Shown in pieces: positions 10,410 to 32,709 of a DNA stretch of 64,000 nucleotides. The position numbers and the translations under genes were made by a program. This DNA is from Anaerolineales bacterium (lineage in GTDB: Bacteria; Chloroflexota; Anaerolineae; Anaerolineales; Villigracilaceae). How positions within the stretch are numbered: position 1 is the first letter of the stretch; each line of letters begins with the position of its first letter. The notes beneath the pieces were generated by a model. The model was not told where the DNA came from and did no database searches. It saw only the letters and a list, made by a program, of their open reading frames with translations. The stretch lies in assembly GCA_013140605.1 (NCBI GenBank), contig JABFSL010000012.1, forward strand, positions 1 through 64,000. The letters are read 5' to 3'.

Positions 10410-10452
10410 TTATGATTTCCGATTTTTGATTTTAGATTGACGATTTTATACT

Positions 10453-10490
10453 ATTACGAATCACGTATTGCGTTTTTCGTGATTCGTAAT
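10453..10490. repeat. Perfect inverted repeat between CpXC and pepF genes
   Basis: ATTACGAATCACG (10453-10465) and CGTGATTCGTAAT (10478-10490) form a 13-bp stem with a 12-base loop. It lies downstream of pepF and upstream of the CpXC gene. Without a clear T-tract on the minus side it is a weak terminator candidate, or a dispersed repeat. Confidence 0.5.
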
Positions 10491-10524
10491 CGACTAATGA
10501 CTATCAGACCAGACGACCAGAAGA

Positions 10525-14371: not shown

Positions 14372-17300
14372 ATGTTTCATTATCAAGGCAAGGTTGTAAA
14401 AGCTGTCGGATTTCAGTTGTTGAGCGGGGTATCTATTCTTTTATTTTTATTTGCATCAATCGGTTTTAGATCTGTAACTATTGCTGAAGCGCGAAGTAAT
14501 AACAGCGCAGAGCCAGTTACTTCAGTGGACACAGGTGCTTTCTTGAAAGCACCTGTATTTGTTCCATTGCCAAGCGTAACTGTCGGCACTGGCGGCGGTT
14601 CGGTCATGCTGGGGGCTGATTTTACGATCACAGCCACTTTTAGAAATAATGGGGATACTGGCTACGGCCCATTTATTGACTTGTATATTCCCCATCTGGG
14701 ACCAGACGGAGTGTTTGGCAATCCTTTAACCTATGATGGTATCAGCGCGCCGGGCGGTGGAAACTATACAGCCACAATGGGCAGCGAAAATTTAATTGTG
14801 ATCACTCAAATTTTCCCAGATGCAGATGGCGCGGGGCCAGGTACTACTGGATGTGTGCAGCATCCCTGGGGTGTGGATGATGCGGGTATTTTTCTGGATG
14901 TGTGCGGTACAGCTGGCGATCAGTTGGTTTCCATTCAAATTCCGTATGGCTCTTATACCTCAAGTCAGCCGGGGTTGTCCATAAGCATTCCTGCACATCT
15001 AAGTGATCAGGCAAATTTGGGGACGGCATTGGATATTCGCGCGCGTAGTGGCTTTATTTACGGGGCCACCCCAATGGTGGACTGGTGCTGTACAGTTCCC
15101 AAAGATACAACCATTGTTTCCAGCAGCTCCACACCAGATAGTTGGCCGCCTCGTTCGACTGTTACTCCTTCAGTGGTAATTTTTTCAAAATCATCGAACG
15201 CAGGTGCATTGCCCACTGGGCCGAATAACCCGGCAACTTATACAATGACCGTCAACATAGCAGATGGTCAGCCTTTTACCGGCATTAGGATTACCGATAA
15301 TTTACCTAACAGTATTGTTTACATGGGGAATTTAACAAGCAGCCTGCCTTATACCAGTATTGGCCAACCGCCTGTAGGAGGCCCATATAACGGCGCTCAG
15401 ATTATCCTGACTTATGCCGATCAGCTTCCAACTCCAACACCAATCACCAGCGATATTGTGATTACCTTTGATTATTATGTTCCTGATCTTGACGCAAATG
15501 GGAATGTGATTGCGCCTGGATCCACTGTCAACACAGCCACGTTGGATACGATTACCTGGCAGTCTGAAGGTGGGACTGTGCCGGTGGATGTCAGTGTGGG
15601 TGTTGGTCCCGGTGTAGCCTCTCATAGCGATGAGCCGATCACTTTAGGTAAATCCAGTTCTCTGGCGGTTACCCCGGATTCCAATGGACCGACCCCGGGT
15701 GACATAATAAGATACACCATCACCTTTGAAATTTCCGATTATTTCGGCTTTACTAACTTGAATCTGACAGATGTGCTTGACGATGGACAGCATTATTATC
15801 AGGACGCAACCTATTTTCCCACTCTGAGAATTGTTCGCGATGGCGGTTCCGAGACTTACAATTTTGGCGCAGCGAATGTGGATGTGACTTGTAATTATAC
15901 CGGCGCTTCCGGCGGAGAATGTGATAGCGGGCCGACAGCCACTCCAAATGGAGCCACCACTGTCACATTTGATATCAATCAGGAATTGGTCGATCAGACA
16001 AATCCTGATAAGAATCAAATACTTGGTGATTATGTGAACGATGGCGGCATCGCCGCCAATGCAGCTACAACAGGTACTGTTACTTTTTATGCGGTCATGT
16101 TGGACAGGTATGTTGACGCCAATGGCGGCGAAAGCGTTAAGATGGGTGACTCACTGGGCGATAATGCCACACTAACCGCCAGCCGAGTTGACCCGGCAAC
16201 TTGTATATCTGGAACATGCTCGGTTACTGTTCAGACGGATACTTTGGGTGCGGGTGCGAGCGTCAGTGTGGGGCGTGGTACGCTTGAAAAAACCATCGTG
16301 GCGCGCAATGGTGCTGTCTGTAACCCGGCGACTTTTGCCGCCTGCACAAGTGTGCAAGTCTCTGCAAGTGATTCGATCACATACCGCATTACATACGATC
16401 TTCCTACTGGTGATTTTGACGGCCTAAGCTTGACCGATTTCCTGCCTCTCCCCATTTATTATGCGGATGACCCGAACGCGGACGGCGTGACTACTTGGAG
16501 TAAATATACTGGCGCGGCTTCTGTTCCGGACGCTGGCGGCTGGATGCTAGGTCCCAACGATACGCGCGGCATCGACCCGGCAGTCACGATCTCAAGTCAT
16601 ACATTAGACAACTTCATTAAGTTTGATTTCGGTACGTTTGATGATCTGGGCAACACGCCCAAAAAGATCGATATTCTGTTCACGGTGCGCGTGACTGATC
16701 AAAAATTTGGCGACGGCTTGAAGATGCGCAATAGCGTTTTACAGCAGGATGCCAACAGCCCCGGTACCACATCTACTACAAGTAATTTTATTGATCTGAC
16801 TTTAACCGAGCCCTTGCTTGTCGGCGAAAAAACAGTTGTGTCCACGGATCATGCGGGCGTGGAACCCAATCCGCCGATGAATCCACCCGTCATATTTGAA
16901 TTGCCGGGTACTACAGGCTCTGCTCCCTGGAATAGCGGCACAACACCGATCAACTCAGATTATCTGGATGCCAATCCGCTGGGAAGCGGCATTGGCGGCA
17001 TTGACGGCGGCGACATGGTCAAGTTTGCCATTGTCATTGAGAATACGGGCAGTGGCATTAATGGCGCGTATGATATTACTTTGAGGGATATATTACCGGC
17101 TGGTTATATTTTCCCCGGCCTTGGTTTGGGTGGATTTAATCTACAGGTTTATCGCGGTGATGGCAAGGCGCTCGATGATGGAACTGGTTCAGGTTTTGAA
17201 TTTTTGGGCACAGTGGCTGAACCCGGCCCGGATGGATTGACCGGTACGCCGGACGATTTCTTCGGAGCGGGCATCCGCTTGAAGGACCCGTCAGCCAACC

Positions 17301-20300
17301 CCGCTTTCGTTCCCTCTGACCCTGAGTATGGACACGGTCTCTGTCAACTTCATGAAGCTGCCAGCGGAAAGAACGTTATCATCGTCACGTACGATCTAAT
17401 GGTGCGTCCTGACATTACGCCCGGCACTGTGCTGCAAAACTTGGGTCAAGTCACCAATTACTCAGGCAGTGAAGGCGGCACTCCCTATATCCCCGGACCG
17501 ATTGAAAGCAGTTCGGATAGCGAGATCAGTATCCCAGCATTGCAAAAGCAATTGACCACCACAGAAGTCAGCGGACTTGGAAATGATCATACACAAGCTG
17601 TGATTGGTGAGTTTCTTACCTATACCCTCACCGCTACTTTCCTGGAAGGGGTGACTCCAGTTGCTCAGATCGTGGATACATTGGATGCAGGCCTCGCATT
17701 TGTGGATCTGCAATCGGTCACCGCTTCAAACCCCGACACCGACCTTGCCGGCGCGGCTGACAAAGGCATCTACAGCAGTGTGATGACTTTCGATGGCGCT
17801 GGCCTGTGTACCAATTGTACAGCCGGGACCAATCCACTGATTGAGAATAACGGCAACAAGATTACATTTGATTTTGGTACCCTTTCCAATTCAGACAACG
17901 ACAACGCTGTTGCTGAAACCATTACCATCGTATATCGCGTGATGGTCTTGAATGTTGTCTCGAATCAGAGCGCAACCACTCCATTGAATAACACTGCGGT
18001 TCTCTCATGGACTGGCGGCAGCGATACAAAATCTGCAAATCCTGTTGCCATTGTCGAGCCAAATGTCAATGTCACAAAAACCGTTGATATTATCAATGGC
18101 GTGGATGCCGGCAATTTGTTGACATATACTGTCACCATCAGTAACCCCTCTGTGTTGACTGCTTTTGATGCAACTTTGAGCGACGCATTTCCTTTTAACG
18201 CAACCACGCTTGCAAGTCAGTTGGAAAATATCACCATCACCAATGTGACCGACACTGATCTTGTCACACCAATAACTGCGGCTAACTTTACCATTGCCTG
18301 TGATGACTCACCGGGCTGTGCAGCGCCGAATCGTTGGACCTTGAGCACAGTTACGCCCTTTGACATGCCACAGAGCCGTACGATCACATTGACTATTACC
18401 GCGAATGTGTCTCCGACGGCGTTTCCATTGGCGACAATTGATAATTATGCCCAGGTACGCTGGACCAGCATGGATGGGGACTTCAGTGACCGCTCAACTT
18501 TTGTAACCGACACATCAGATTCGGAGCGGACTGGTGCTGATGGCCCCGGCGGGCTGTTGAATGATTACGCCAGACAAAGCCCAACTGTTGCGCGCACAAC
18601 GCTAACTAATTTGGCCGGCACGAAATATTTTATAGTTTCGTCTGAAGCTGGCACATCGGATGCGGCAGTTCCCCCTCGTGTCACCATCGGTGAAGTGGTT
18701 CGCTATCGAATTGCATTACGCCTAAACGAAGGCACAATGCCAGATCTTTCAATGCTGGACAATCTTCCAACCGGTATGCGCTTTATTAATGATGCTCAAG
18801 CCAGGGTGGTGTTTGTCTCGGATGGCGCTGGAATGACCTCCACTACAATAAATAATTCGCTGGCTGGATGTGGTAGTTTAAATGTAACCGGTACTGCCGC
18901 AGACTTGGTCAGTTTGCCATCTGCTTCCATTACCTGTCCTTTACCCGATATTGCAGTAGCCGGCGGAACCAACAGCCGCACTTCAAATGTTGATGCTTAT
19001 GCTTCGGGAACGGATGTATATTTCAAATTTGGAAATATTTTAAACAGCGATAATGATGCTTCACAGGAATATGTTGTCGTGGAATTCAACGCTGTTGTGG
19101 AGAACCTTGCCAGTAACCAGGGACCAAACAATTTAACAGTTGGTGTCGCAACCACCATCCGTGGAAATACCTTCCAGGCTTATATCAATACAGCCTCGGC
19201 TCCTGCGCCAGCGGCTCTATTCACATCAAATACCATCAATGTTCAAATTGCTGAACCAGCCATAACGAATTTAGCTAAATCGGTTAGCCCAGCAAGCGGC
19301 GATGCGGGCGATCAGGTTGAATATACAGTTACATTTTCCAATGTCAGCAGCGTAAACGCATCCCCGGCATATGATGTTGTGCTGACGGATAGCGTTCCTG
19401 CGAAGATGACTGTTGCGCCGATAATTCCTGCAACCGACATCACATTCACTCCCGCTTTGTGCGGCGCGTTTGTTTCAGATACATCGTCTGGCAATACCAT
19501 CACGCTCACATTTACATCACTAAATTCTGGTTGCGCGGTTTCCGTTAAATATCGCGCAACCTTGCAAACCTCTGTTATTCCCGGAGAAATCCTTACAAAC
19601 AGCGCTGTTGTAAATTACTCCAGTTTGCCATTAACAACCGGCACAACTCCCAACCCCACAGGCTCGAATACACCCGGCGCTACTGGTACTGCAACGGGAG
19701 AACGCAATGATACAGGCGGCCAGGGTGCGGATGGAACAATATTAAACAACTATCGTGATCTGGCATCTGCCAATGTGAGTATTACCGCGGTTCAGCCTGT
19801 CAAATCTCTTACTTCCTCCTCTGACCTGCTGACCCTCGGTTCAAACCTGACCGTTGGGGAGGTTGCCCGCTATCGTATGTTGCTTACTCTGGCAGAGGGT
19901 ACTTCACCGGTCACGCAAATTCGGGATAACTTACCCGTGGGCCTGCAATATCTAAATGATGAAGACACACGCCTTGCCTTTGTTTCAGATGATGGCATTC
20001 CAACTTGTGTCGGAAGCACTGCCACGGTTTCCTCCACCGACGGAGCAATTGGTACAAGCCCATGGATATGCGGAAATGAAACCACCATCGCGGCTATTAC
20101 CCCATCCTTTATATTGCCCGGCGCAGCCATTACAGGCGCGCCTTTCAACGAAGGGACTGACCCCACATTCAATCTCAGCGACATCGTCAACAGTGATACC
20201 GATGCGAACGCTGAATATATCCTCATGGAATTCAATGCGCGTGTGTTGAACGTCGCAGGCAACCAGGATGTCCCGGTAACTACGATCAATAACAATTTCA

Positions 20301-23300
20301 CAGTGCTGATCAACGCGATTGACAAGGGCACTTCCGCAAACATTCCTGTGACTGTGGTTGAGCCGATCATCACACTTGATAAGCAGCTCTCTTCCATCAC
20401 TGGTACGGTCGATGCGGGCGGAGTGGCAACCTACACCGTTACCCTGACCAATACCGGCACCGCCCCGGCTTACGATTCCAACCTCGTTGATGCTTTGCCC
20501 GCTGTCCTTGATTTCAATCCCGCTTCTGTAAGCTTTGCTTTTACAGGCGGCGCAAGCGGGTCCACTGATAATTCTTCGGATGTGTTAAACCGTGTCAATG
20601 TCACAATTGGAACAATCCCTGTCGGCGACAGCGCTACGATCACATACACGGCCAATATATTGGCGACCGTCACGCCCAATCAGTTGATCCAAAATACAGG
20701 CAACGTCACCTGGACGAGTTTGACTGGTACAGATGCAAATGAACGCGATGGTTCTGGCGGTATTAATAATTATTCGACCAGCGATTTTACTTCGTTTAAT
20801 TCACAGGCTCTCGTGCCGGTTAAATCCATTGTCAGCACCACCGCTGCTCATACATCAGAAACAGGCGACGGGTCGGCAGGAAGCGCGCGCGATCTGACCA
20901 TCGGCGAAGTGATCCGCTATCGACTCGCAGTCACGATCCCGGAAGGAACCGTTTCCCAACTCCAATTGCTGGATACATTGCCAGCCGGGTTTACATTCCT
21001 GAATGATGGCGATATCCGCATTTCGTTCCTTGCCAATGCGGATATGACGGAAGAGGCTGATCTGGCTGGCGCGGATAATGATGCTCTGCCGCCAACTTTC
21101 CTTTTGCCCTCCGGGCGCGTTTCTGTTGTGGGCCAGGATATTACCTTCACAGTTGCCGACCTTGTTGAAGCCAATGATCTTGTCAATAATGACAATGATG
21201 CCGATGATGAATTTGTGGTGATCGATTTCAATGTGCGCGTCAATGATGATGCGAACAATAACAATACCGATCTGGACAGCAACGATTTTGATCTTGTTGT
21301 TGGCGGTACAACAATTGCCACTTCCAATGTGGTTGGCTCGCGCATTGTCGAGCCGCTGCTTGATATTACAAAACTTGTTGATGATGCCACCTGGGCATAC
21401 GGCCAGACAGTTCTCTACACTTTGCGACTCACGCACACTGCGGCCAGTCTCAGCGCTGCGCAGGATCTTGTCATCACTGACCAAATCCCTGCCGGGCTAA
21501 CTTATGTTGCCGGTACCATCGCTGCACCCGCTGGCTGGACTGCAAACGATACGAATGCTCCTGATCTCACATGGACGTGTGCCGGTACTTGCTCCATGCT
21601 AACCACGGATGGAATTCTCGAATTTACATATCAGGCGCGTGTCAATGATCCGCCTGTGCCGCCAGCCTTGCCCGGTGGTGGAACTGCGACCAATACCGTT
21701 TCTGTTGCTTGGAACACTTTGTCTGGTGTTGATGCAAATGAAAGAGGCTACACTGATTCAGCTTCTGTTACCGGCACGCTTGATGAATATCGCTATGCAC
21801 TTGGAAACCGTGTTTGGTTCGATACCAACAATAACAGCCTGATCGATAATGATGGTGTAGGTGGTAATCCTGATGAAGTGGGAATAAACAACGTTAGCGT
21901 TGACCTATATAAAGATGATGGCACTGGCAATCTTGTCTATCAAAAATCCACAACCACTACGAATGGCGGTTATTACCTGTTCGACTATCTTGTAGCCGGT
22001 GATTATGTTGTGGTGCTCCCATCCACGAACTTTGATCCCAGTGCGGTGTTGGATGGTTATTATTCATCTGCGACATCCATTGATTCCAGCGGTGCTCTCT
22101 TGGAAGGCGCGGCCGCGCTCTCGAATGCCGACATTGATTCTGACGATAACGGCATGTTCCAAACAGCGGGCGGATTTATTGGCGGAGTCGCTTCCAGCGC
22201 AGTAACAATAGGCGGGGTGGAACCAATTAACGAGTCCGATTTGAACGGCGGGTCGCAGGGTGTTCAACCCGATAATCGTGCCAACATGACCGTCGACTTT
22301 GGCTTCTATCGCACAGCCATCGGTGATATCGTCTGGTTGGATGAAAACATTGACGGCGAATATGACGCCGGTGAAACGCTGGTTGATGGCGCGTCAGTGA
22401 GACTCTATGTTTCGGATGGAACAACTGACGTTGAGGTCCGAAATACAACAACTGATATCAACGGTGAATATTCGTTCACAGACCTGCCGAATGGAGATTA
22501 CATTATCAAAGTTGTCGGCCCTGTGGGAACGGTCAGTACCACGGATGTATTCAATTCAGCCGACACAACCGATCCTGATGTCAATGCAAATAATAATGAT
22601 AACGGTATTGGCAAGGCCAGCAATTCCGTCCAATCTGGCACGGTCACAATGACTGCGGGTTCGGCGGGCGCGCTGACTCAAAATACAGTTGTTCAAAATA
22701 ATGGCACAACCACCAACCCGACCCTTGATTTTGGATTTGTGTATCCATACGCTTTGGGAAACCGCGTCTGGTTTGACACCGATAACAATTCCCAAATTGA
22801 TTTCGCAAACGAACTCGGCGTGGATGGCGTTACCGTTGATCTGTATTCTTCCGCCGATCTCACCACCATCGTAGCCACAGATACAACTAGCCCTGACGGC
22901 TATTATCTGTTCGACAATCTCTTCCCCGGCGAATATGTGGTTGTTATCCCAGCTTCAAACTTCAATGGCGGAGCGTTGACCAGCTACTGGTCATCTGCCA
23001 CCCTGCGCGCCGCGGACGGAACCATCGGTGAAACCACCGCGCCAGATGCGGATAACGATCTGGATTCTGATGATAACGGCACAATGCAAACCGCAGGCGG
23101 ATTTGTCAACGCTGTCATATCAAGCCCGGTCACAGTCGGACCGTTTGGGCTGGTCGAGCCTTCGAGTGAGTCTGATCTTGAATCCGGGGTTGGTCAGGGA
23201 ACACAACCCGATGGCCGCTCCAATTTGACCGTTGATTTTGGCTTCTATCGCGTTGAAGTCGGCAACCTCGTTTATAGCGATGGCAATCAAAACGGCAATT

Positions 23301-26300
23301 ATGAATCCCTGAGTGACGTTGTTCTTTCAGGTATCACTGTGGAGTTGTATATTACAGACGGAACCACCGAAACCAAAGTCAATGTCGGCCCAGATGGAAT
23401 TTTACGCACAGCCGATGACGCATCCGGTGACATGGTCACCGATGTAAATGGCTTATATCTATTTAGTGGTTTGCCGCAAGGTGATTACATTATCAAAGTC
23501 ACAGCGCCCACCGGAACGAGCAGTACAGTGGACGGTTATAACGTTGATGACGACAACACAGACCCGAATGTCAATGCCGATGATAATGATAATGGTATAG
23601 GCTCAGGCTCAGGAATTGTTACATCAGGTTTGGTCACACTTACCCCCGGCTATGATGGCGCGCCCGGTTATGACAATAACACTATTACTTATAGTACCGG
23701 CACTACCAGCGATCCCACTTTGGACTTTGGTTTCATTCCAGTGTTCTCGCTGGGCAACCGCGTTTGGTTTGATACCAACAACAGCGGTCAGATAAATGGA
23801 CTCGAAGTTGGCATCGACAATGTTGATCTGGAACTCTACAACGCCGATGCTTCAGGCGTGGTCACAACCTCAACCGGGTTAACCGCCACAACTTCCGCTG
23901 GAGGGTACTACCTGTTCAACAATCTTCCAGCTGGGAATTATGTTGTGGTAATTCCCGCCAGCAACTTTAGCGGCATATTGAACGGCTATTGGTCTTCAGG
24001 CACTTCCCGCGATGTTGATGGCACGATCACTGAATTACCTGCCGCCCTCTCCAATACCGACAGCGACTCTGACGATAACGGGATGCTCCAAACGAGCGGC
24101 GCTTTCAATGGCGCGGTTATCTCATCCTTTGTCACACTTGGACCCAACACAAACACAGAGCCATTCAACGAACTTGACCTGGGACCCGCCGGGCAAGGTC
24201 AACCTGACCGTCAGGCCAATATGACCGTTGACTTTGGTTTTTACACAATTGAACTTGGAAATCAGGTTTGGAACGATCTCGATAACAGCGGCTTGTTTGA
24301 TAGTGCCGAGGCGGGTATCTCTAATGTGACAGTTGAACTTTGGCCTGCGGGTGGCAGCGGTGTTGCACCATTGGCAACAGCCGCCACAGATGTCAACGGC
24401 AACTACATCTTTACTGGCTTGCCCCGCGGTGATTATCTTGTCCGCATTCCGGATACGGAATTTGAAGGCGCTGGAACCCTTCGCGATTATGTCTCCAGCA
24501 CGGGCGGAGCGCTTACCCCTTATGAGCCTGCTCCCGATACTGATTCCAATTTCACCGACTCGGATGATAATGGCACAGAAACTGGCGGAACACTGGGACT
24601 CGGAGGCTACATTCAAACTTCGATAGTTTCCCTTACCCCTGCTGGTGAACAATCAGTTAACGATGCTCTTGGTCTCACCAGCGAACCTCGTGTTGACTTT
24701 GGCGTCTTTAACAGTCCCAGAATTGATCTGAGTATCACCAAGACAGACAATGTACTTTACTACCTTGTAGGTGGCACATTAAATTATGAGATCGTTGTAA
24801 CCAACAGCGGCCCGGCGGATGTGGTTGGCGCAGTGGTCACAGATGTGCTCCCCGCGCAAATCTCAGCTTGGACCTGGGATTGCGCTGTCGGTACACCTGC
24901 CTTATACAATTGCACAAGCGCCAGTTCCAATTCACTCGACTTTACCGACTCCCTCGACCTGCCGAGCGGCGCAAGCGTTACTTACAACGTCACCGCTGAT
25001 GTCGATGTAGCCGCCGTTGGCAATCTGACCAATGAAGTCACTGTCAACCTTCCAGTGGGCTCCCTCATCACCGAATCAAATTTAGTCAATAATTCAGCGC
25101 AGGATATCGATACTCAGGCCTCACTGGTTGTTACCAAGGATGATGGCCTGACAGTGGTTGGCCCTGGCTCCCCCCTGACTTATGTCATTACGATTCAGAA
25201 CACTGGCGATGTGGATCTGACCAATATCACACTCACTGATACCCTGTCTGCTGATCTGACCTACAACAATGCCAGCCTTGCTCCAACAACAATTGCGGGA
25301 AATACATTGACCTGGTCTGGTCTGTCACTTACAGCAGGTTCAAGCGTCACGATTAACGTGGAAGCCGCTGTAAGCAATTCTCCATCCAGTACAACCATAA
25401 CAAACAATGTGGATGCGGCTGATACAGATACCGGTGCATCCGCCACATCCAGTGATGTTGATTCGGTTGTATTCAATTCAAACTTTACGAAAACCTTGTT
25501 GGGCACAAACCAAAGCTTTACTCAAAATTCAGATGTGGCAATTGGCGAGATCGTGACTTATGAAATAACCGCCAACCTTGAGGCAGGCCTCGCGTTCGAT
25601 AATGTCGTCATCACTGACCGTATGGATAAAGGTCTTGCCTTTGTGGACTGCGTGTCTGTCACTCTGGCTGGTACGGATATAACCAATACCGTTTGCCCGC
25701 CAACGGTAACTGATATCGTTGATACAGGCGATGCTGGCAACCTCGCGAACCCGGGCAGGCAGGTTCAGTTTAATATTGGAAATATCACCGCAAATGAAGT
25801 TGCATCAACTCTGGTCCTTCGATATCGTGCTGTTGTACTTGATGTGATCGAGAATCAGGAAACAGATGCGTTGAACAATGGCGCCACCTGGACATGGCTT
25901 GGCGGATTGGTCTCTGCCAGCGCGAACGATGTGGTTATTGTTGAGCCAGATTTGACAATTGACAAATCCGCGCTTCCCACCTCGGCGACGGCTGGTACTG
26001 CCATTGAGTTTACCCTCGCGATAGCACATACTGACCAAAGCTCCGCCGACGCCTTTGATGTTGTGGTGACGGACATATTGCCCGCCGGTCTCGAATACAT
26101 TGCCTGTACACCTATTTCATATGAAGGGCTTGCTCCAACGACTCAACCAGACCCATGCCTTATTACTGGAGGCAATCTTTCCTTTACTTGGGATTCCTTC
26201 CCGCTAAACGAAACAGCCACGATCAAGTTTTTTGCCCGTTACACGGGTTCGCAGCCAACACTGACAAATAACGCATCCGTCGCATGGAGTTCCCTGCCGC

Positions 26301-27013
26301 TTGATCCCGCAGGCACACCTCCTGCGCCGGTACAGTTATCCACCTATAATTCGAGTTCCACAGAGCGTTGGTATGATCCGCTTGATCCGGTGAACATTTA
26401 CCAGGTCGTTGGTTCTGTTTCGATCAATTTCGTGCCAGTCGAAACAAGGACAAGAGTGAAATTGCCGAAAACCTTGCCTGCAACAGGCTTCGCTCCCAAT
26501 GTGATCACGACCCTGCCGCAGCAGCCAGCAGACAAGCTGTATTCAGCAACGGATGTGTGGGTTGAAATCCCCAGTGTCAATCTCAATACCTCAATCGTTG
26601 GCGTGCCGTTGGTGAATGATGATTGGGATGTCACCTGGCTATGGCAGCAGGCTGGATGGTTGAATGGAACCGCCTTCCCAGGCTGGCAGGGGAACAGCGT
26701 GCTAACCGGGCATGTCACTTTGCCAAATGGGAAGTCCGGTCCGTTTGAGGGGCTTGATAAACTTAAGTGGGGTGATAAGGTTATCGTCCATGCGTACGGC
26801 TCTGTGTATACCTATGAAGTGCGCGAGAATAGTACCATCAGCCCGAATAATATATCCGTGCTTCAGCATGAAGAAGAAGCCTGGCTTACATTATTGACCT
26901 GCAAGACATACAACGAACGTACGAACACCTATTCCAATCGTATTGCTGTGCGGGCAGTGTTGTTAAAAGTGGAGAGAGAAAAACAGTCTGGTGGTCTAGG
27001 TGATAATCGCTAA
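14372..27013 (+). CDS. Giant DUF11/SdrD-B repeat surface protein with LPXTG-like motif and C-terminal sortase domain
   Basis: A 4213-residue exported protein. An N-terminal signal segment (LLSGVSILLFLFASIGF, then AEA) is followed by an N-terminal beta domain to about residue 265. About twelve DUF11/isopeptide-D2-type repeats fill 265-2475 (recurring EP.l.i.K and GE..rYri patterns), then six SdrD-B/Cna-B-like repeats at 2475-3450 (LGNRVWFDTNNNG type). Four more DUF11 repeats follow to about 4020, then LPATG (4035-4039). The chain ends in a sortase domain (about 4061-4205) with H4114 (LTGHV), C4177 (TLLTCKTY) and R4190. The H-C and C-R spacings of 63 and 13 match S. aureus SrtA (64 and 13). There is no C-terminal membrane helix after the sortase. 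Strong ribosome site CGGAGGGTC. Likely adhesin or cell-wall fibre; the self-sorting role is inference. Confidence 0.9.
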   Translation: MFHYQGKVVKAVGFQLLSGVSILLFLFASIGFRSVTIAEARSNNSAEPVTSVDTGAFLKAPVFVPLPSVTVGTGGGSVMLGADFTITATFRNNGDTGYGPFIDLYIPHLGPDGVFGNPLTYDGISAPGGGNYTATMGSENLIVITQIFPDADGAGPGTTGCVQHPWGVDDAGIFLDVCGTAGDQLVSIQIPYGSYTSSQPGLSISIPAHLSDQANLGTALDIRARSGFIYGATPMVDWCCTVPKDTTIVSSSSTPDSWPPRSTVTPSVVIFSKSSNAGALPTGPNNPATYTMTVNIADGQPFTGIRITDNLPNSIVYMGNLTSSLPYTSIGQPPVGGPYNGAQIILTYADQLPTPTPITSDIVITFDYYVPDLDANGNVIAPGSTVNTATLDTITWQSEGGTVPVDVSVGVGPGVASHSDEPITLGKSSSLAVTPDSNGPTPGDIIRYTITFEISDYFGFTNLNLTDVLDDGQHYYQDATYFPTLRIVRDGGSETYNFGAANVDVTCNYTGASGGECDSGPTATPNGATTVTFDINQELVDQTNPDKNQILGDYVNDGGIAANAATTGTVTFYAVMLDRYVDANGGESVKMGDSLGDNATLTASRVDPATCISGTCSVTVQTDTLGAGASVSVGRGTLEKTIVARNGAVCNPATFAACTSVQVSASDSITYRITYDLPTGDFDGLSLTDFLPLPIYYADDPNADGVTTWSKYTGAASVPDAGGWMLGPNDTRGIDPAVTISSHTLDNFIKFDFGTFDDLGNTPKKIDILFTVRVTDQKFGDGLKMRNSVLQQDANSPGTTSTTSNFIDLTLTEPLLVGEKTVVSTDHAGVEPNPPMNPPVIFELPGTTGSAPWNSGTTPINSDYLDANPLGSGIGGIDGGDMVKFAIVIENTGSGINGAYDITLRDILPAGYIFPGLGLGGFNLQVYRGDGKALDDGTGSGFEFLGTVAEPGPDGLTGTPDDFFGAGIRLKDPSANPAFVPSDPEYGHGLCQLHEAASGKNVIIVTYDLMVRPDITPGTVLQNLGQVTNYSGSEGGTPYIPGPIESSSDSEISIPALQKQLTTTEVSGLGNDHTQAVIGEFLTYTLTATFLEGVTPVAQIVDTLDAGLAFVDLQSVTASNPDTDLAGAADKGIYSSVMTFDGAGLCTNCTAGTNPLIENNGNKITFDFGTLSNSDNDNAVAETITIVYRVMVLNVVSNQSATTPLNNTAVLSWTGGSDTKSANPVAIVEPNVNVTKTVDIINGVDAGNLLTYTVTISNPSVLTAFDATLSDAFPFNATTLASQLENITITNVTDTDLVTPITAANFTIACDDSPGCAAPNRWTLSTVTPFDMPQSRTITLTITANVSPTAFPLATIDNYAQVRWTSMDGDFSDRSTFVTDTSDSERTGADGPGGLLNDYARQSPTVARTTLTNLAGTKYFIVSSEAGTSDAAVPPRVTIGEVVRYRIALRLNEGTMPDLSMLDNLPTGMRFINDAQARVVFVSDGAGMTSTTINNSLAGCGSLNVTGTAADLVSLPSASITCPLPDIAVAGGTNSRTSNVDAYASGTDVYFKFGNILNSDNDASQEYVVVEFNAVVENLASNQGPNNLTVGVATTIRGNTFQAYINTASAPAPAALFTSNTINVQIAEPAITNLAKSVSPASGDAGDQVEYTVTFSNVSSVNASPAYDVVLTDSVPAKMTVAPIIPATDITFTPALCGAFVSDTSSGNTITLTFTSLNSGCAVSVKYRATLQTSVIPGEILTNSAVVNYSSLPLTTGTTPNPTGSNTPGATGTATGERNDTGGQGADGTILNNYRDLASANVSITAVQPVKSLTSSSDLLTLGSNLTVGEVARYRMLLTLAEGTSPVTQIRDNLPVGLQYLNDEDTRLAFVSDDGIPTCVGSTATVSSTDGAIGTSPWICGNETTIAAITPSFILPGAAITGAPFNEGTDPTFNLSDIVNSDTDANAEYILMEFNARVLNVAGNQDVPVTTINNNFTVLINAIDKGTSANIPVTVVEPIITLDKQLSSITGTVDAGGVATYTVTLTNTGTAPAYDSNLVDALPAVLDFNPASVSFAFTGGASGSTDNSSDVLNRVNVTIGTIPVGDSATITYTANILATVTPNQLIQNTGNVTWTSLTGTDANERDGSGGINNYSTSDFTSFNSQALVPVKSIVSTTAAHTSETGDGSAGSARDLTIGEVIRYRLAVTIPEGTVSQLQLLDTLPAGFTFLNDGDIRISFLANADMTEEADLAGADNDALPPTFLLPSGRVSVVGQDITFTVADLVEANDLVNNDNDADDEFVVIDFNVRVNDDANNNNTDLDSNDFDLVVGGTTIATSNVVGSRIVEPLLDITKLVDDATWAYGQTVLYTLRLTHTAASLSAAQDLVITDQIPAGLTYVAGTIAAPAGWTANDTNAPDLTWTCAGTCSMLTTDGILEFTYQARVNDPPVPPALPGGGTATNTVSVAWNTLSGVDANERGYTDSASVTGTLDEYRYALGNRVWFDTNNNSLIDNDGVGGNPDEVGINNVSVDLYKDDGTGNLVYQKSTTTTNGGYYLFDYLVAGDYVVVLPSTNFDPSAVLDGYYSSATSIDSSGALLEGAAALSNADIDSDDNGMFQTAGGFIGGVASSAVTIGGVEPINESDLNGGSQGVQPDNRANMTVDFGFYRTAIGDIVWLDENIDGEYDAGETLVDGASVRLYVSDGTTDVEVRNTTTDINGEYSFTDLPNGDYIIKVVGPVGTVSTTDVFNSADTTDPDVNANNNDNGIGKASNSVQSGTVTMTAGSAGALTQNTVVQNNGTTTNPTLDFGFVYPYALGNRVWFDTDNNSQIDFANELGVDGVTVDLYSSADLTTIVATDTTSPDGYYLFDNLFPGEYVVVIPASNFNGGALTSYWSSATLRAADGTIGETTAPDADNDLDSDDNGTMQTAGGFVNAVISSPVTVGPFGLVEPSSESDLESGVGQGTQPDGRSNLTVDFGFYRVEVGNLVYSDGNQNGNYESLSDVVLSGITVELYITDGTTETKVNVGPDGILRTADDASGDMVTDVNGLYLFSGLPQGDYIIKVTAPTGTSSTVDGYNVDDDNTDPNVNADDNDNGIGSGSGIVTSGLVTLTPGYDGAPGYDNNTITYSTGTTSDPTLDFGFIPVFSLGNRVWFDTNNSGQINGLEVGIDNVDLELYNADASGVVTTSTGLTATTSAGGYYLFNNLPAGNYVVVIPASNFSGILNGYWSSGTSRDVDGTITELPAALSNTDSDSDDNGMLQTSGAFNGAVISSFVTLGPNTNTEPFNELDLGPAGQGQPDRQANMTVDFGFYTIELGNQVWNDLDNSGLFDSAEAGISNVTVELWPAGGSGVAPLATAATDVNGNYIFTGLPRGDYLVRIPDTEFEGAGTLRDYVSSTGGALTPYEPAPDTDSNFTDSDDNGTETGGTLGLGGYIQTSIVSLTPAGEQSVNDALGLTSEPRVDFGVFNSPRIDLSITKTDNVLYYLVGGTLNYEIVVTNSGPADVVGAVVTDVLPAQISAWTWDCAVGTPALYNCTSASSNSLDFTDSLDLPSGASVTYNVTADVDVAAVGNLTNEVTVNLPVGSLITESNLVNNSAQDIDTQASLVVTKDDGLTVVGPGSPLTYVITIQNTGDVDLTNITLTDTLSADLTYNNASLAPTTIAGNTLTWSGLSLTAGSSVTINVEAAVSNSPSSTTITNNVDAADTDTGASATSSDVDSVVFNSNFTKTLLGTNQSFTQNSDVAIGEIVTYEITANLEAGLAFDNVVITDRMDKGLAFVDCVSVTLAGTDITNTVCPPTVTDIVDTGDAGNLANPGRQVQFNIGNITANEVASTLVLRYRAVVLDVIENQETDALNNGATWTWLGGLVSASANDVVIVEPDLTIDKSALPTSATAGTAIEFTLAIAHTDQSSADAFDVVVTDILPAGLEYIACTPISYEGLAPTTQPDPCLITGGNLSFTWDSFPLNETATIKFFARYTGSQPTLTNNASVAWSSLPLDPAGTPPAPVQLSTYNSSSTERWYDPLDPVNIYQVVGSVSINFVPVETRTRVKLPKTLPATGFAPNVITTLPQQPADKLYSATDVWVEIPSVNLNTSIVGVPLVNDDWDVTWLWQQAGWLNGTAFPGWQGNSVLTGHVTLPNGKSGPFEGLDKLKWGDKVIVHAYGSVYTYEVRENSTISPNNISVLQHEEEAWLTLLTCKTYNERTNTYSNRIAVRAVLLKVEREKQSGGLGDNR
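21796..24719 (+). repeat. Six tandem SdrD-B/Cna-B-like domain repeats
   Basis: Units of roughly 430-520 bases begin at about 21796, 22315, 22749, 23255, 23749 and 24249 with codons for LGNRVWFDTNNNS-type strands. Each carries a YYLFDNLPAGDYVVVIP-type strand and Asp/Asn-rich DSDDNG loops typical of calcium-stiffened SdrD B repeats. Units 1, 3 and 5 resemble each other more than units 2 and 4, as if a two-domain block had been duplicated. Confidence 0.75.
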
Positions 27014-27609: not shown

Positions 27610-30600
27610 ATGTCAAAGCACACGTGGGTTTTTCGATTTGTGAGAAAAGCAGCTACCCTTTTCTTTTTTGTCTTTCTGCTTATAGGCCTGCTATTTCCTG
27701 CCAATATTAATCCTGCCAAGGCTGAAGGCAGCAAGGAACTTATGGCTTCTGGTATTGGCAGCCGTCCTTTGACAGAATGGCGTGTTGATACTACCGCGGG
27801 TTTATATCGCCGCACATTTTTTAGGGTATATGCCAATGCTGGCGAAAACATCCTGATGGGTTCGAGCGCCATGGGTTTGACCACACTTACGGGGGCGGGC
27901 GATATCGTACTTTATCAAGAGGGGCAGGTTTCCAATTCACAGATTAATCAAACGGCTTTGGCTGCGATAACTCCAACATTTAGATGCAGTGTAGATGGTC
28001 CGGGACTTGGAATATTAAGAGGGCTTACCTCTGCTGCAACCCGTAGTATGGAACTTGTGGGAGCCACTACAAATGGCGGTTTGGATGGGGGCTATACTCC
28101 CTGTGTTTATACAGTTCCTGTGGGAGGGACTGGAACATACTGGGTCGCCATGTATGGTCCGTCCGGGTCTGCCCCGGCCATTAATACGAATGGTTCCTCC
28201 GGGACGATCGCTGCTCCAAATATTACCGCTGCTCAAGCAAGCGGCGTATCGGTCTGGGATATTACTGTGCGGACTGGCAGCCCATTAACTGGAACCAACA
28301 AACCAGGTCGCGTTTTTGTCGATTACCTGGCGCAGAAAACTGCCGGCAATGGTGGCGTTGGAAATCAAGTCAATTCCACGGTTTATGCATCCACTGCTGA
28401 TGGCTATGTATATCAAGTGGGCCTGAATGGCCTGGACCCGTTTGGCTACATTCTTTATGGTAACAGCGTTGGGTTTTTAGACCCAGACGGCACAACGCCG
28501 CTTTATCACGATGTACAATACCCTGACAATCAATTGAGTAATCCGGCTGGCGGGGTTACGCTTCCGCCAGCTTCTGCAAGGATTTTTTTCAGTAACCCGC
28601 TTTTGTCCGATTTACCTGCCAATATTCTGCCAGCTCCAATCCCACCTGCCATTTCAAATGTTTCCTACCTGGGTTCCGCTGGCGGCGTGACTGGTTTTCA
28701 TTCCGTTGGCGGCCAGTTTACCTTTACCAGCAATGTTATTGGTATCAGTGAAGTTGTGATTAGCCTCGATGGATTGGATTTTCAGCCGGATACTCCCACC
28801 AATCGTGTAATTCGTAGTCAAGTGGCTGTTGGTGCGAACCTTATTGACTGGGATGGATTGGATAATACGGGCGTAGCTTTTCCAGTTGGAAACGGATATA
28901 AATACCGCCTGACGTTTCACGCCGGTGAATATCATTTCCCACTACTAGATGCCGAGAATAGCCCAAATGGAGGGCCGACTCTTACTTTGCTGAATCCCAT
29001 TGGCGGCGTATGCCCATTTAACGTAAACTGCCACACTGGTTTCTATGATGATCGCGGTTACAGGCTTTCAACAGGCACTATTGTTGGAACAGTGGGCCTA
29101 ACCTTACCGGGGGATGTTAATGGTGTGAATCCTCCTTTAACGAATCACTCCGATGATATTAATGGTTTTGACACATCTACCAATCAGCGCGCATGGGGTA
29201 ACGGCACCGGCAGGGGCTTTGGAAATTGGAAGGCTCTGGACCTGTGGGCCTATATCCCAGTGGGTCCGTTTGAGGAACAGCTTAATGTGGTTGATCCGAT
29301 TCCATTGATGGCAGTGGCGAAGAGTCAAACGAGCACAGGGCCGTATGCTGTAAACGATACGATCACCTACAGTATTGTGGTGACGAATACAGGCAATGTC
29401 ACGTTGACCGGAGTGAGCGTGACAGACAGCAGTGCGATAGTTGGCGTCTGCGCCCCTGCACAACCTTCAACCTTGGCACCGAACGCTACGATGACCTGCC
29501 CAGCGAGCCATGTGGTGACCCAGACAGATGTGGATACTGGCGGTTACGTCAATACGGCAACTGGAGACAGTGACCAGACCCCGCCGAGCGACAGCACGGT
29601 GACTGTCAACTTCACACAGAGTCCCGCGCTGGCGATTGTGAAGAGTGTAACCGAGACAACTTATGCTGCGGTGGGGACGATATTGCATTATTCGTATCTA
29701 GTCACGAACAGCGGCAATGTTACGTTGAACGGACCCTTCACAGTCACGGATGACAAATCCATAGATGAAAGCTGTCCTGCGACTGCGAGTCTGGCACCGG
29801 GTGCAAGCATCACCTGTACCGCGACATATACCGTCACGCAGACGGATATTGATTCAGGCAGTGTGACGAATATTGCATCAGCGCATGGCTTTTTTGGCAG
29901 CACCCCGGTCAATTCTGGGACAGATACCAAAACGGTCAATGCCGCGCAAAATCCATTGATGACAGTCGCGAAGAGTCAAACGAGCATAGGACCGTATGCT
30001 GTAAATGATACGATCACCTACAGTATTGTGGTGACGAATACGGGCAATGTGACATTGACCGGAGTGAGCGTAACAGATAATAGTGCGACAATCGGTACCT
30101 GTACCCCCGTACAACCTTCAACCTTGGCTCCGAACGCCGCGATGACCTGTCCAGCGAGCCATGTGGTGACTCAGGCTGATGTCAATGCTGGCAGTTATAT
30201 CAACACAGCAACTGGAGACAGCGATCAGACCCCGCCGAGCGACAGCACCGTGACTGTCAACTTCACGCAGAGACCGGCACACACGATCGTAAAGAGTCAA
30301 ACGAGCACAGGACCGTATGCTGTAAACGATACGATCACATACAATATTATGGTGACGAATACGGGTAATGTGACGTTGACCGGGGTAAGTGTGATAGATA
30401 ACAGTGCGACAGTCGGAACCTGCACTCCCGCACAACCTTCAACCTTGGTACCAAATGCCACAATGACCTGCCCAGCGAGCCATGTGGTGACCCAGACAGA
30501 TGTGACCACTGGCGGTTATGTCAACACGGCAACTGGAGACAGCGATCAGACCCCGCCGAGCGACAGCACTGTGACTGTCAACTTCACGCAGAGTCCGGCG

Positions 30601-32709
30601 CTCACGATTGTGAAGAGTGTGACCGAGACAACCTACGCTGCGGTGGGGACGATATTACATTATTCATATCTGGTCACGAACAGCGGCAATGTTACGCTGA
30701 ACGGACCCTTCACAGTCACGGATGATAAATCCACAGATGAGAGTTGTCCTGCGACTGCGAGTCTGGCACCGGGTGCAAGCATCACCTGTACCGCGACATA
30801 TACCGTCACGCAGGCGGATATTGATTCGGGCAGTGTGACGAATATTGCTTCAGCGCATGGCTTTTTTGGCAGCACCCCGGTTAATTCTGGGACAGATACC
30901 AAAACGGTCAATGCCGCACAAAATCCATTGATGACAGTGGTGAAGAGTTCTACAACCACGAATTTGAATGCACCAGGAACAGTGACCTACAACTATCTGG
31001 TGACGAACGCCGGGAATATAACATTGACAGGCATCAGTCTAAGTGACGATAACGACAACAATGATATGAGTTGTCCCGCGACCACACTAGCGCCGACTGC
31101 CACGATGACCTGTTCAGCGACGCATACCTTTACGCAGGCCGAACTGGACGCTAACGGTTCACCGACAACTGGGAGCGGCTTCCTGACAAATATTGTGACA
31201 GCCAGCTCGAATGAAGCGCAGAGTGCGACTGATACTCTTAATATCCCGATAGCAAACGTTGATCTGGCGTTGACGAAAACTGTAAATAACACATCGCCAA
31301 AAGTTGGAGAAGCGGTTGTCTTTACGATCACCATCACAAACCAAAGCCTGACAACTGCTGCGACAAATGTAGTTGTTGATGATGTGCTGCCCGTTGGGCT
31401 GACTTTCAATTCAGCTACGCCCAGTCTCGGATCTTTTAGTAATGTTACCGGTGACTGGACCATTGCAACTTTAGCCGCAAATACAAGCGCGACATTGCTT
31501 GTAAACGTCACGGTTACTCAAATTGGTGTGATTACGAATACAGCCGAAATTGTTGCTGTTGATCAGTTTGATATCGACTCAACTCCAAATAACCATGTGC
31601 CAACTGAAGATGATCAAGCCAGTGTAAGTATTGGCAGTCTGTTTGACCCGCCGTCTGGTATTAAAAGCTTCAGTGAAGCGGGCTTGCCGCAATTGGAATT
31701 CCGCATGGTATGGATCAACAGTGGCAACACAACCACTATCAATACTCAGGTCGTAGACAATATTCCAGCTGGGACGGCCTACGTAAGTGGAAGTATTGTA
31801 TGTACGCCTCTGGGATCTTCTGCAAATGCTGGCGCTGCCACTGTGCCATTGAATACCACAGTGGCGAACTCGTTCTGTGCCTTTGATCCGATCAACAATC
31901 GGATTCAGTGGCAGGGCTTCATTGGACCTGATAATGGCAATCTTACTGAAGCGGCCGCTGCCAATGAAGTGGTAATTACTTTCCGCGTCACCGTAAATGA
32001 TGGTGTAAATCAGGTGGTCAATTTTGGTTCATCACGGACCGATACCGATGGCGATACCGACTTCACTGATGAAACCGTATTGGGTACTTCTCTGATCATC
32101 ACGAATCAGGTTGTGTGGAATCGCAGTCCTGTAGTAGTGGTCGATGACGACCCAGGTAATACTCCTGCTGCGTCTGTTGCTTCTGGCGGCGGATTCCTGA
32201 TCCCGGTCACAGGTTTTGCGCCCGATGTTGTGACCAAGTTGAACACTGTGTCTGGCCCAGTCTACGAACCGACAAACCTCACGATTAAGATTCCGACGAT
32301 CAAGGTGTACACTTCCATCGTGGGTGTTGAACAAAAAGATGAGGATTGGGATGTCTCCTGGTTGCAGGATCAGGCCGGATGGTTGAGCGGAACCGCATAT
32401 CCAACATGGAAGGGCAACAGCGTGCTGACGGCGCATGTTGTTAATGCGGATGGAAAGCCTGGCGTATTCTTCAAACTGAAATACCTGAAGACGGGTGAGT
32501 ATATCTTTGTGTATAACCGCGGCTATCGTTATACCTATAAAGTTGTATCGAATGAGTTTGTACAGCCTGACGATATTTCAGTGTTAAAGCACGAGAGCAA
32601 ATCGTATCTCACCCTCATTACCTGCGATACCTATGATGAAGAGACAGCCACTTATCTTCGCCGTGTTGCGGTGCGCGCAGTGCTTGTGGATGTGCGCGAA
32701 ATAAAATAA
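27610..32709 (+). CDS. DUF11-repeat surface protein with IPVTG motif and C-terminal sortase domain
   Basis: A 1699-residue exported protein, paralogous in design to the 4213-residue one. The signal peptide is AATLFFFVFLLIGLLFP then PAKA. An N-terminal domain (about 40-565) holds DWDGLDNTGV and EYHFPLLDAENSPNGG stretches. Residues 568-1113 are six DUF11-type repeats in the order A-B-A-A-B-C, followed by two more to about 1520. IPVTGFAPD (1531-1539) takes the place of LPATGFAPN. The sortase domain (about 1555-1695) has H1609, C1672 (TLITCDTY) and R1685, spacings 63 and 13. As in the larger protein, no membrane helix follows. Ribosome site GAGG before the ATG. Probably displayed at the cell surface; the linkage target is unknown. 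Confidence 0.9.
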   Translation: MSKHTWVFRFVRKAATLFFFVFLLIGLLFPANINPAKAEGSKELMASGIGSRPLTEWRVDTTAGLYRRTFFRVYANAGENILMGSSAMGLTTLTGAGDIVLYQEGQVSNSQINQTALAAITPTFRCSVDGPGLGILRGLTSAATRSMELVGATTNGGLDGGYTPCVYTVPVGGTGTYWVAMYGPSGSAPAINTNGSSGTIAAPNITAAQASGVSVWDITVRTGSPLTGTNKPGRVFVDYLAQKTAGNGGVGNQVNSTVYASTADGYVYQVGLNGLDPFGYILYGNSVGFLDPDGTTPLYHDVQYPDNQLSNPAGGVTLPPASARIFFSNPLLSDLPANILPAPIPPAISNVSYLGSAGGVTGFHSVGGQFTFTSNVIGISEVVISLDGLDFQPDTPTNRVIRSQVAVGANLIDWDGLDNTGVAFPVGNGYKYRLTFHAGEYHFPLLDAENSPNGGPTLTLLNPIGGVCPFNVNCHTGFYDDRGYRLSTGTIVGTVGLTLPGDVNGVNPPLTNHSDDINGFDTSTNQRAWGNGTGRGFGNWKALDLWAYIPVGPFEEQLNVVDPIPLMAVAKSQTSTGPYAVNDTITYSIVVTNTGNVTLTGVSVTDSSAIVGVCAPAQPSTLAPNATMTCPASHVVTQTDVDTGGYVNTATGDSDQTPPSDSTVTVNFTQSPALAIVKSVTETTYAAVGTILHYSYLVTNSGNVTLNGPFTVTDDKSIDESCPATASLAPGASITCTATYTVTQTDIDSGSVTNIASAHGFFGSTPVNSGTDTKTVNAAQNPLMTVAKSQTSIGPYAVNDTITYSIVVTNTGNVTLTGVSVTDNSATIGTCTPVQPSTLAPNAAMTCPASHVVTQADVNAGSYINTATGDSDQTPPSDSTVTVNFTQRPAHTIVKSQTSTGPYAVNDTITYNIMVTNTGNVTLTGVSVIDNSATVGTCTPAQPSTLVPNATMTCPASHVVTQTDVTTGGYVNTATGDSDQTPPSDSTVTVNFTQSPALTIVKSVTETTYAAVGTILHYSYLVTNSGNVTLNGPFTVTDDKSTDESCPATASLAPGASITCTATYTVTQADIDSGSVTNIASAHGFFGSTPVNSGTDTKTVNAAQNPLMTVVKSSTTTNLNAPGTVTYNYLVTNAGNITLTGISLSDDNDNNDMSCPATTLAPTATMTCSATHTFTQAELDANGSPTTGSGFLTNIVTASSNEAQSATDTLNIPIANVDLALTKTVNNTSPKVGEAVVFTITITNQSLTTAATNVVVDDVLPVGLTFNSATPSLGSFSNVTGDWTIATLAANTSATLLVNVTVTQIGVITNTAEIVAVDQFDIDSTPNNHVPTEDDQASVSIGSLFDPPSGIKSFSEAGLPQLEFRMVWINSGNTTTINTQVVDNIPAGTAYVSGSIVCTPLGSSANAGAATVPLNTTVANSFCAFDPINNRIQWQGFIGPDNGNLTEAAAANEVVITFRVTVNDGVNQVVNFGSSRTDTDGDTDFTDETVLGTSLIITNQVVWNRSPVVVVDDDPGNTPAASVASGGGFLIPVTGFAPDVVTKLNTVSGPVYEPTNLTIKIPTIKVYTSIVGVEQKDEDWDVSWLQDQAGWLSGTAYPTWKGNSVLTAHVVNADGKPGVFFKLKYLKTGEYIFVYNRGYRYTYKVVSNEFVQPDDISVLKHESKSYLTLITCDTYDEETATYLRRVAVRAVLVDVREIK
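29311..30950 (+). repeat. Near-identical tandem domain repeats, order A-B-A-A-B-C
   Basis: A units start at about 29311, 29963 and 30288 (GAAGAGTCAAACGAGCA or AAAGAGTCAAACGAGCA). B units start near 29632 and 30604 (TTGTGAAGAGTGT), and a divergent C unit at 30936. Unit length is about 315-330 bases. The copies are almost identical at the DNA level, including the PPSDSTVTVNFTQ coding segment, so duplication is recent or kept uniform by recombination. Confidence 0.85.

Follow-up and report, generated by a model that had tools for sequence, protein, structure and literature searches.

Two surface proteins ending in a sortase domain

The window, i.e., the whole analysed stretch of 64,000 nucleotides of an Anaerolineales genome, carries two neighbouring genes for large surface proteins, designated p1 and p2. 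Both end in a short LPXTG-like motif, a linker, and a sortase domain, an arrangement further called the cassette. The features are as follows:

14372..27013, + strand: p1, surface protein of 4213 aa with the same C-terminal cassette as p2 (ORF and Pfam)
26474..26497, + strand: putative sorting motif LPATGFAP of p1 (LPATGFAPNVITTL), residues 4035-4042
26561..26962, + strand: sortase domain PF04203 of p1 with H4114, C4177, and R4190 (Pfam)
27610..32709, + strand: p2, surface protein of 1699 aa with signal peptide, DUF7507/DUF11 repeats, motif, linker, and sortase (ORF and Pfam)
27610..27723, + strand: signal-peptide-like N-terminus of p2 (MSKHTWVFRFVRKAATLFFFVFLLIGLLFPANINPAKA), by inspection; the end, after AKA, is approximate
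32200..32223, + strand: putative sorting motif IPVTGFAP of p2 (IPVTGFAPDVVTKL), residues 1531-1538
32224..32283, + strand: linker of p2 between motif and sortase domain, of near-constant length (counted from the motif start, the domain begins after 24-28 residues in 97 of 97 domains)
32284..32688, + strand: sortase domain PF04203 of p2, residues 1559-1693, with H1609, C1672, and R1685 (Pfam)

Upstream of its cassette, p1 has SdrD_B, DUF11, and isopeptide-type fimbrial domains (TIGR04226), while Pfam recognized DUF7507 in six stretches, DUF11, and Sortase PF04203 on p2. With PF04203 scores of 84.9 (p1) and 79.7 bits (p2) and a cut-off of 26.6, both proteins belong to the sortase superfamily; TIGR01076 scored 57.1 and 51.1, respectively (cut-off 39.35). 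With the class C model NF033745 (cut-off 160), the scores were 55.3 and 47.7, and with the NCBIfam models of classes D, E, and F they were 38-51 bits (cut-offs 140-166). A named sortase class was rejected for p1 and p2, as no NCBIfam class cut-off was reached. H1609, C1672, and R1685 of p2 are invariant in a 30-sequence alignment (columns H99, C162, and R175, column 1 being p2 residue 1511). From the motif start to the protein end, the motif included, there are 169 residues in p2 and 179 in p1, and both C-termini are short charged tails by eye. No Rfam match was found within the 64-kb window. The initial annotation had described p2 as a protein with a motif followed by its own sortase domain and with a like-built neighbour; Pfam and the alignment confirmed this plan, including the catalytic residues and the equivalent place of the motif in p1.

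Classical LPXTG wall proteins share a signal peptide, stalk repeats, and an [LI]PxTG motif towards the C-terminus with the cassette proteins. In p1 and p2, however, this motif is not followed by a hydrophobic segment and a basic Arg tail; the sortase domain stands in their place. A classical substrate that had lost its membrane tail was rejected as an explanation, because the sortase triad is kept.

Further cassettes in the same genome

Eight PF04203 matches were found in the genome, five of which are C-terminal cassettes: the two in the window and three on contig C132, which read LPHTGFAP or LPDTGFAP. The other matches are a free-standing sortase on C90, in which a membrane segment was recognized by eye, a piece on C87 that coincides exactly with the end of the C90 sortase frame, and a weak match on C91. 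A degenerate DNA pattern for PxTGF..P had six matches in the genome versus three for a control pattern; the cassette genes account for five of the six, and the remaining one is in a 120-residue frame without sortase.

Two neighbouring cassette genes on the minus strand of C132 (L009:12010-14040 and 14376-16550) are identical in their last 932 nt, stop codon included, while upstream of this block their similarity is at chance level and the encoded N-terminal parts are unrelated. Judging from these sequences, the shared block represents a recent cassette transfer between the neighbours. The near-perfect match of the third C132 cassette gene to the other two is limited to roughly the last 150 nt. 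In a quick tree, in which 15 of 74 inner branches are starred, the five cassettes of the genome are distributed over three starred clades. Between the C132 cassette genes lie two genes that look transposase-like by eye (L009:8744-9829 and 9954-11225), which might provide a route for cassette shuffling. Near the same genes, a frame of 1542 aa with 68 CxxCH motifs (L009:20-4648) is a candidate giant multihaem cytochrome.

Family survey and conservation of the motif

Relatives were searched for with the sortase domain alone, and the motif was left out of the query so that it would not be found merely by asking for it. A scan of GTDB contigs gave 29 loci, 28 of them on records titled Anaerolineales, Anaerolineaceae, Anaerolineae, or just Chloroflexi; the remaining one (L042) is a weak Woesebacteria match outside Chloroflexota. 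The matches listed from 400 genomes of the phylum form two groups. The strong group (E below about 1e-45) consists mostly of long frames and is confined to the same order, with the exception of G276 from the same class. The weak group (E from about 4e-27 up) consists mostly of frames of 200-400 residues, and includes three pieces at contig edges which may belong to the strong group. Within the order, 137 of 151 genomes match the query at 1e-6 with either kind. Matches of intermediate strength (E of about 1e-22 to 1e-35) also turn up in the order search but hardly in the phylum list; the motif is absent from those of six genomes, a count to which others, such as those of G533, do not belong.

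The family set comprises 100 distinct domains with more than 120 bits against a four-row profile, identical domains (e.g., pairs in L100 and L159) being counted once. It was compiled from 28 of the 29 contig-scan loci, the strong phylum matches listed, and 18 hand-picked order matches, and is thus not a random sample; the partial phylum matches G387:C125, G269:C79, and G377:C65 were left out. As the upstream sequence is missing in L068 and L175, 98 domains are assessable; L041 ends after the motif. According to these sequences, p1 and p2 are members of a large Anaerolineales family.

A [TS]GF motif stands upstream of the sortase domain in 97 of the 98 assessable domains, and in all 97 it starts 24-28 residues before the domain. 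The strict form [LI]P.TGF is present in 91 domains and [LI]P.TGFAP in 73, while the six non-strict motifs are ILDTGF (L101, in which Pro is missing), APATGF, APETGF, VPKTGF, LPASGF, and LPKSGF. The only domain that has upstream sequence and lacks the motif, L070, has Tyr in the column of the catalytic Arg and an Arg directly after it; no such motif occurs in any plus frame of this locus. The triad is otherwise intact, with H in 80 of 80 sequences, C in 79 of 79 readable, and R in 78 of 79 readable. Family, motif, spacing, and intact triads are thus directly supported, and the condition under which the initial annotation would have been given up, a conserved sortase with an absent or random motif, did not occur in this sortase-only search. 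A chance motif is ruled out by its presence throughout the family and by the pattern matches in the p1/p2 genome when compared with the control.

Among the first 78 sequences, P was counted in 77, T in 76 (S in the other 2), and G and F in all 78. Entropies of the six positions are 0.94 (L/I), 0.10 (P), 3.20 (x), 0.17 (T), 0 (G), and 0 bits (F), and those of the eight residues upstream of the motif are 3.1-3.8 bits. In sortase substrates, a variable residue stands between a fixed P and a fixed T, and the conservation pattern of the motif appears to be the same. The motif was initially written as [LI]P.TGFAP[ND]; its core stands, while [ND] is not a rule of the family, as position 9 is G in 34, N in 24, and D in 9 of the 78 sequences. 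Ile at position 1 had been read as fitting an enzyme adapted to its own tethered motif rather than to classical signals. This argument is weak: Ile occurs in 17 of 97 motifs, 14 of the 17 are of the IPV type, and this type clusters on the quick tree; moreover, the sortase-motif list given in PMC12617251 includes IP.TG. In L173 (G424, minus-strand frame 2-679), the motif and linker are tandemly duplicated (LPSTGFRHGEVTQLPKQPAAPSLPSTGFRHGEVTQLPKQPAAKAY), and only the second copy is normally spaced.

Modules upstream of the cassette

Pfam analysis of 18 cassette proteins revealed different upstream parts. Enzymes and folds are represented by subtilase, an ice-binding domain, Ser/Thr kinase, endonuclease/phosphatase, and a lactonase propeller, and repeats by FG-GAP, Chlam_PMP, cadherin, MBG/YDG, and DUF11/SdrD_B stalks. 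In three of the 18 proteins (L113, L102, and L018) the sortase is the sole Pfam domain, and L108 has besides it only an Ig-like match below cut-off. Single-linkage BLAST clustering of the N-terminal regions placed 70 of 76 in one cluster; since it did not separate the architectures, the statement on N-terminal diversity rests on the Pfam results of the 18 proteins.

A crude test on the 44 frames that their loci contain in full showed a hydrophobic stretch at the N-terminus of 39. Downstream of the motif, no membrane-like stretch was seen in any of the 44, the best 19-residue hydropathy being 1.42. This lack and the portability of the block are directly supported. The block of motif, linker, and sortase therefore appears to be a portable C-terminal cassette, as initially proposed from p1 and p2; the proposal is borne out by the 97 of 98 domains with the motif, the shared 3' block of 932 nt, and the diverse N-terminal modules. 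In the protein encoded at L116:16549-18939 (G176), a Ser/Thr kinase is followed by a single membrane segment seen by eye, a spacer, LPRTGFAP, and the sortase; here the cassette appears to sit on a signalling protein.

Classical tails and free-standing sortases

When 41 relatives were searched for LPXTG anchors, two tails were found, LPTTGFADQTGLPTL...RRLRLS and LPNTGFMDEVGLPG...RRLRLS. A two-row profile of these tails has exactly one match per genome in 117 of the 151 genomes of the order. Of the 20 best-scoring profile matches, 18 (the two profile seeds included) have LPxTGF, a membrane segment, and RR; the two deviating ones are L155 with LAQTGF and L156 with LPSAGF. The genome with p1 and p2 has a classical tail with LPTTGFA as well (LPTTGFADEFGLPGLVVMALAFVIVILLARRLR; LPTTGFADEFGLPG...ARRLR). 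TIGR01167 had no match in this genome at E 0.1, and the model also missed this tail on contig C96. In this genome (G000:C96:25057-25158, L157) and in 116 others of the order, the tail belongs to a small single-copy protein with an N-terminal membrane segment, the C-terminus of which is LPxTGFA, a membrane segment, and RRLR. As the motif also occurs in classical tails, LPxTGFA probably serves the Anaerolineales lineage as a sorting signal in the classical setting too. This speaks for a real signal, and at the same time leaves room for a free-standing enzyme acting on the cassettes.

Free-standing sortases of Chloroflexota share the domain family and the phylum with the cassette proteins, but are mostly single enzymes of 200-400 residues. 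LPxTGF was found in none of the 21 free-standing rows fetched as a control. Eight of these rows have LPFT[AT]P upstream of the domain, about 32 residues away in the five with LPFTA; all are from families f25 and f61 (L120, L121, L123, L125, L131, L133, L134, and L135), and this motif is perhaps a pseudo-substrate lid of another kind. Of 39 sortases below the family score with upstream sequence, two have [LIVM]P.[TS]G[FYW], both on long frames: L073 with IPQTGF about 20 residues before the domain and L116:95-2827 with IPDTGY 26 residues before it. Because both are long proteins of genome G176, they are perhaps distant cousins of the cassette. The long-frame sortases L177, L178, L196, L074, and L075, which belong to other families, are without the motif. 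Two of them, L074:2992-5763 and L075:3186-5633, come from another part of the phylum and have a C-terminal sortase and no LPxTG. Seven sortase matches are gathered on the single contig G426:C134 (L184, L188, L190, L192, L194, L196, and L203), and the motif is absent from all of those read.

In principle, a free-standing sortase could anchor the cassette proteins, and the fused domain would then be a leftover or a retention device. The genome does have both the C90 sortase with its putative membrane segment and the classical LPTTGFA tail. However, almost all copies read retain the complete fused triad, whereas a leftover would decay, and the usual retention device, a membrane anchor, is absent from the cassettes, so we regard processing in trans as quite improbable.

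Relation to class C sortases

Among the PDB matches listed, the closest sequences are class C pilus sortases, with 2w1j as the best (2.9e-16). The sortases SrtC1 and SrtC2 of GBS PI-1 (4g1j and 4g1h) and SrtC-1 of S. pneumoniae (2w1j) have a DPX lid; they share with the cassette the core and an N-terminal segment over the active site with the same spacing. The cassette differs in that the corresponding position is occupied by LPxTGF ([TS]GF in 97 of 98 domains) instead of the D-P-aromatic lid, the segment is continuous with a giant surface protein, and there is no C-terminal transmembrane segment (44 relatives). In the profile, the lid region NPGLDPF of class C sortase 24rr is aligned with the cassette motif, and the first-strand P comes 26 residues after the lid F in 24rr and 26 (p2) or 27 residues (p1) after the motif F.

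Two AlphaFold2 runs were made. In the first (p2 with 20 upstream residues), motif and linker were unplaced with pLDDT below 50, and the overlay of this low-confidence model was about 3 residues off register. The second (p1 from motif position -5) had a mean pLDDT of 91.5, with 89, 95, and 94 for the motif and linker blocks, and two of its five models averaged at least 89. Overlays of the second run begin at model residue 1 on residue 79 of 4g1h, 85 of 4g1j, and 53 of 2w1j. Most class C structures listed overlay from model residue 1, and those of classes A, E, and F from residue 19-30. Deviating from this, the class C structure 3re9 overlays only from residue 28 and the lid mutant 6bwe from residue 20, and 2kw8 of class A already from residue 2. 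Since overlays give only first and last residues, the register between them is deduced: when overlaid without gaps, the motif Pro would lie on lid Pro85 of SrtC2 and beside Tyr92 of SrtC1, from which Pro91 is taken as the lid Pro of SrtC1. The Asp-Pro-aromatic lid of SrtC2 is described in PMC3493515 as a pseudo-substrate that overlaps bound LPAT, with the Pro similarly placed. By alignment and model, the motif thus appears to occupy the position of the class C pseudo-substrate lid, where it is predicted to be ordered in one AlphaFold2 run.

Such a place and spacing, together with an invariant motif F that matches the lid aromatic, would also be seen if the motif were only a lid, i.e., an uncut autoinhibitory pseudo-substrate of DPX type on a sortase whose substrates are other proteins, for example the membrane protein with LPxTGFA. 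The LPFT[AT]P of the f25 and f61 sortases points in the same direction. Nevertheless, a lid requires neither L/I at position 1 nor T-G, yet both are kept while x is free, and a regulatory lid does not account for the cassette being fused to many large surface proteins of different kinds. In addition, G451 and G495 have at least seven strong matches each, compared with at most one classical tail per genome. A motif serving as a lid only is therefore unlikely.

Proposed mode of action

Sortases are known as separate enzymes, each of which processes many substrates. The block of motif, linker, and sortase is most plausibly a tethered auto-sortase cassette, in which a class-C-like lid became the substrate; this reading has our reasonable, not full, confidence. 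The signal peptide would secrete the surface protein, the C-terminus of which would be a class-C-like sortase core bearing the full [LI]PxTGF signal on its N-terminal lid segment. This tethered signal would sit in the substrate groove, a docking suggested by the model. The catalytic Cys would then cut between T and G and hold the surface protein as a thioester, which an amine of the wall or of an adjacent protein would resolve. In this way, the surface protein would become anchored through its Thr, and the spent sortase with the new N-terminus GFAP... would fall away or act again. We infer cleavage at T-G, attachment, such an acceptor, and action within the chain rather than between copies. 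Self-cleavage is in agreement with the substrate-like conservation, the class C lid position, the one AlphaFold2 run, and the same signal in a classical tail. It is less easily reconciled with the deviating motifs ILDTGF (L101) and APxTGF (two domains), with motif-less relatives, both free-standing and long-frame, from other families of the order, and with the unplaced motif of the first AlphaFold2 run. Probably, many giant surface proteins of Anaerolineales cut and attach themselves.

Class C sortases build pili, and a tethered sortase might likewise connect different copies by Thr-to-Lys bonds and so form fibres of giant stalks. This agrees with the best PDB matches of the cassette being class C sortases and with the isopeptide-type fimbrial domains of p1; kinase, subtilase, and ice-binding fusions are, on the other hand, unlike pilins. 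The self-cutting step is common to polymerisation and to the auto-sortase cassette, and the acceptor differs. We consider polymerisation a rather remote alternative.

We lean slightly towards regarding the auto-sortase cassette as a separate mode of covalent display with one enzyme per substrate in one chain, in which an inhibitory lid turned into a sorting signal, the sortase is disposable and used once, and the cassette spreads between unrelated proteins, even those bearing kinases. If true, this would account for many large stalk proteins being anchored with few free-standing sortases in Anaerolineales. The family would also be a natural model for a class C lid turning into a substrate and a source of ready-made self-cleaving sortase tags.

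A published likeness is man-made. An engineered fusion of PhaC, SrtA, and a target, described in PMC4658790, carries its own recognition sequence and cleaves itself on activation. It has sortase and motif in one chain like the cassette, but was built to release a protein and not for anchoring. In the open-licence full-text literature, searched by titles and abstracts (preprints and most subscription papers lie outside it), there was no natural single chain of motif and sortase and nothing on sortases of Anaerolineales. The natural arrangement in the cassettes resembles laboratory-built fusions. The sortase-motif screens in PMC8286594 and PMC12617251 are confined to the last 50 residues, and such a motif search is therefore blind to cassette proteins; in PMC8286594, nearly half of the adhesin-like proteins are given as being without a known anchor. 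Throughout an order of environmental bacteria, substrate and enzyme would be a single molecule, and records of cassette-bearing contigs name groundwater and fen samples among their sources.
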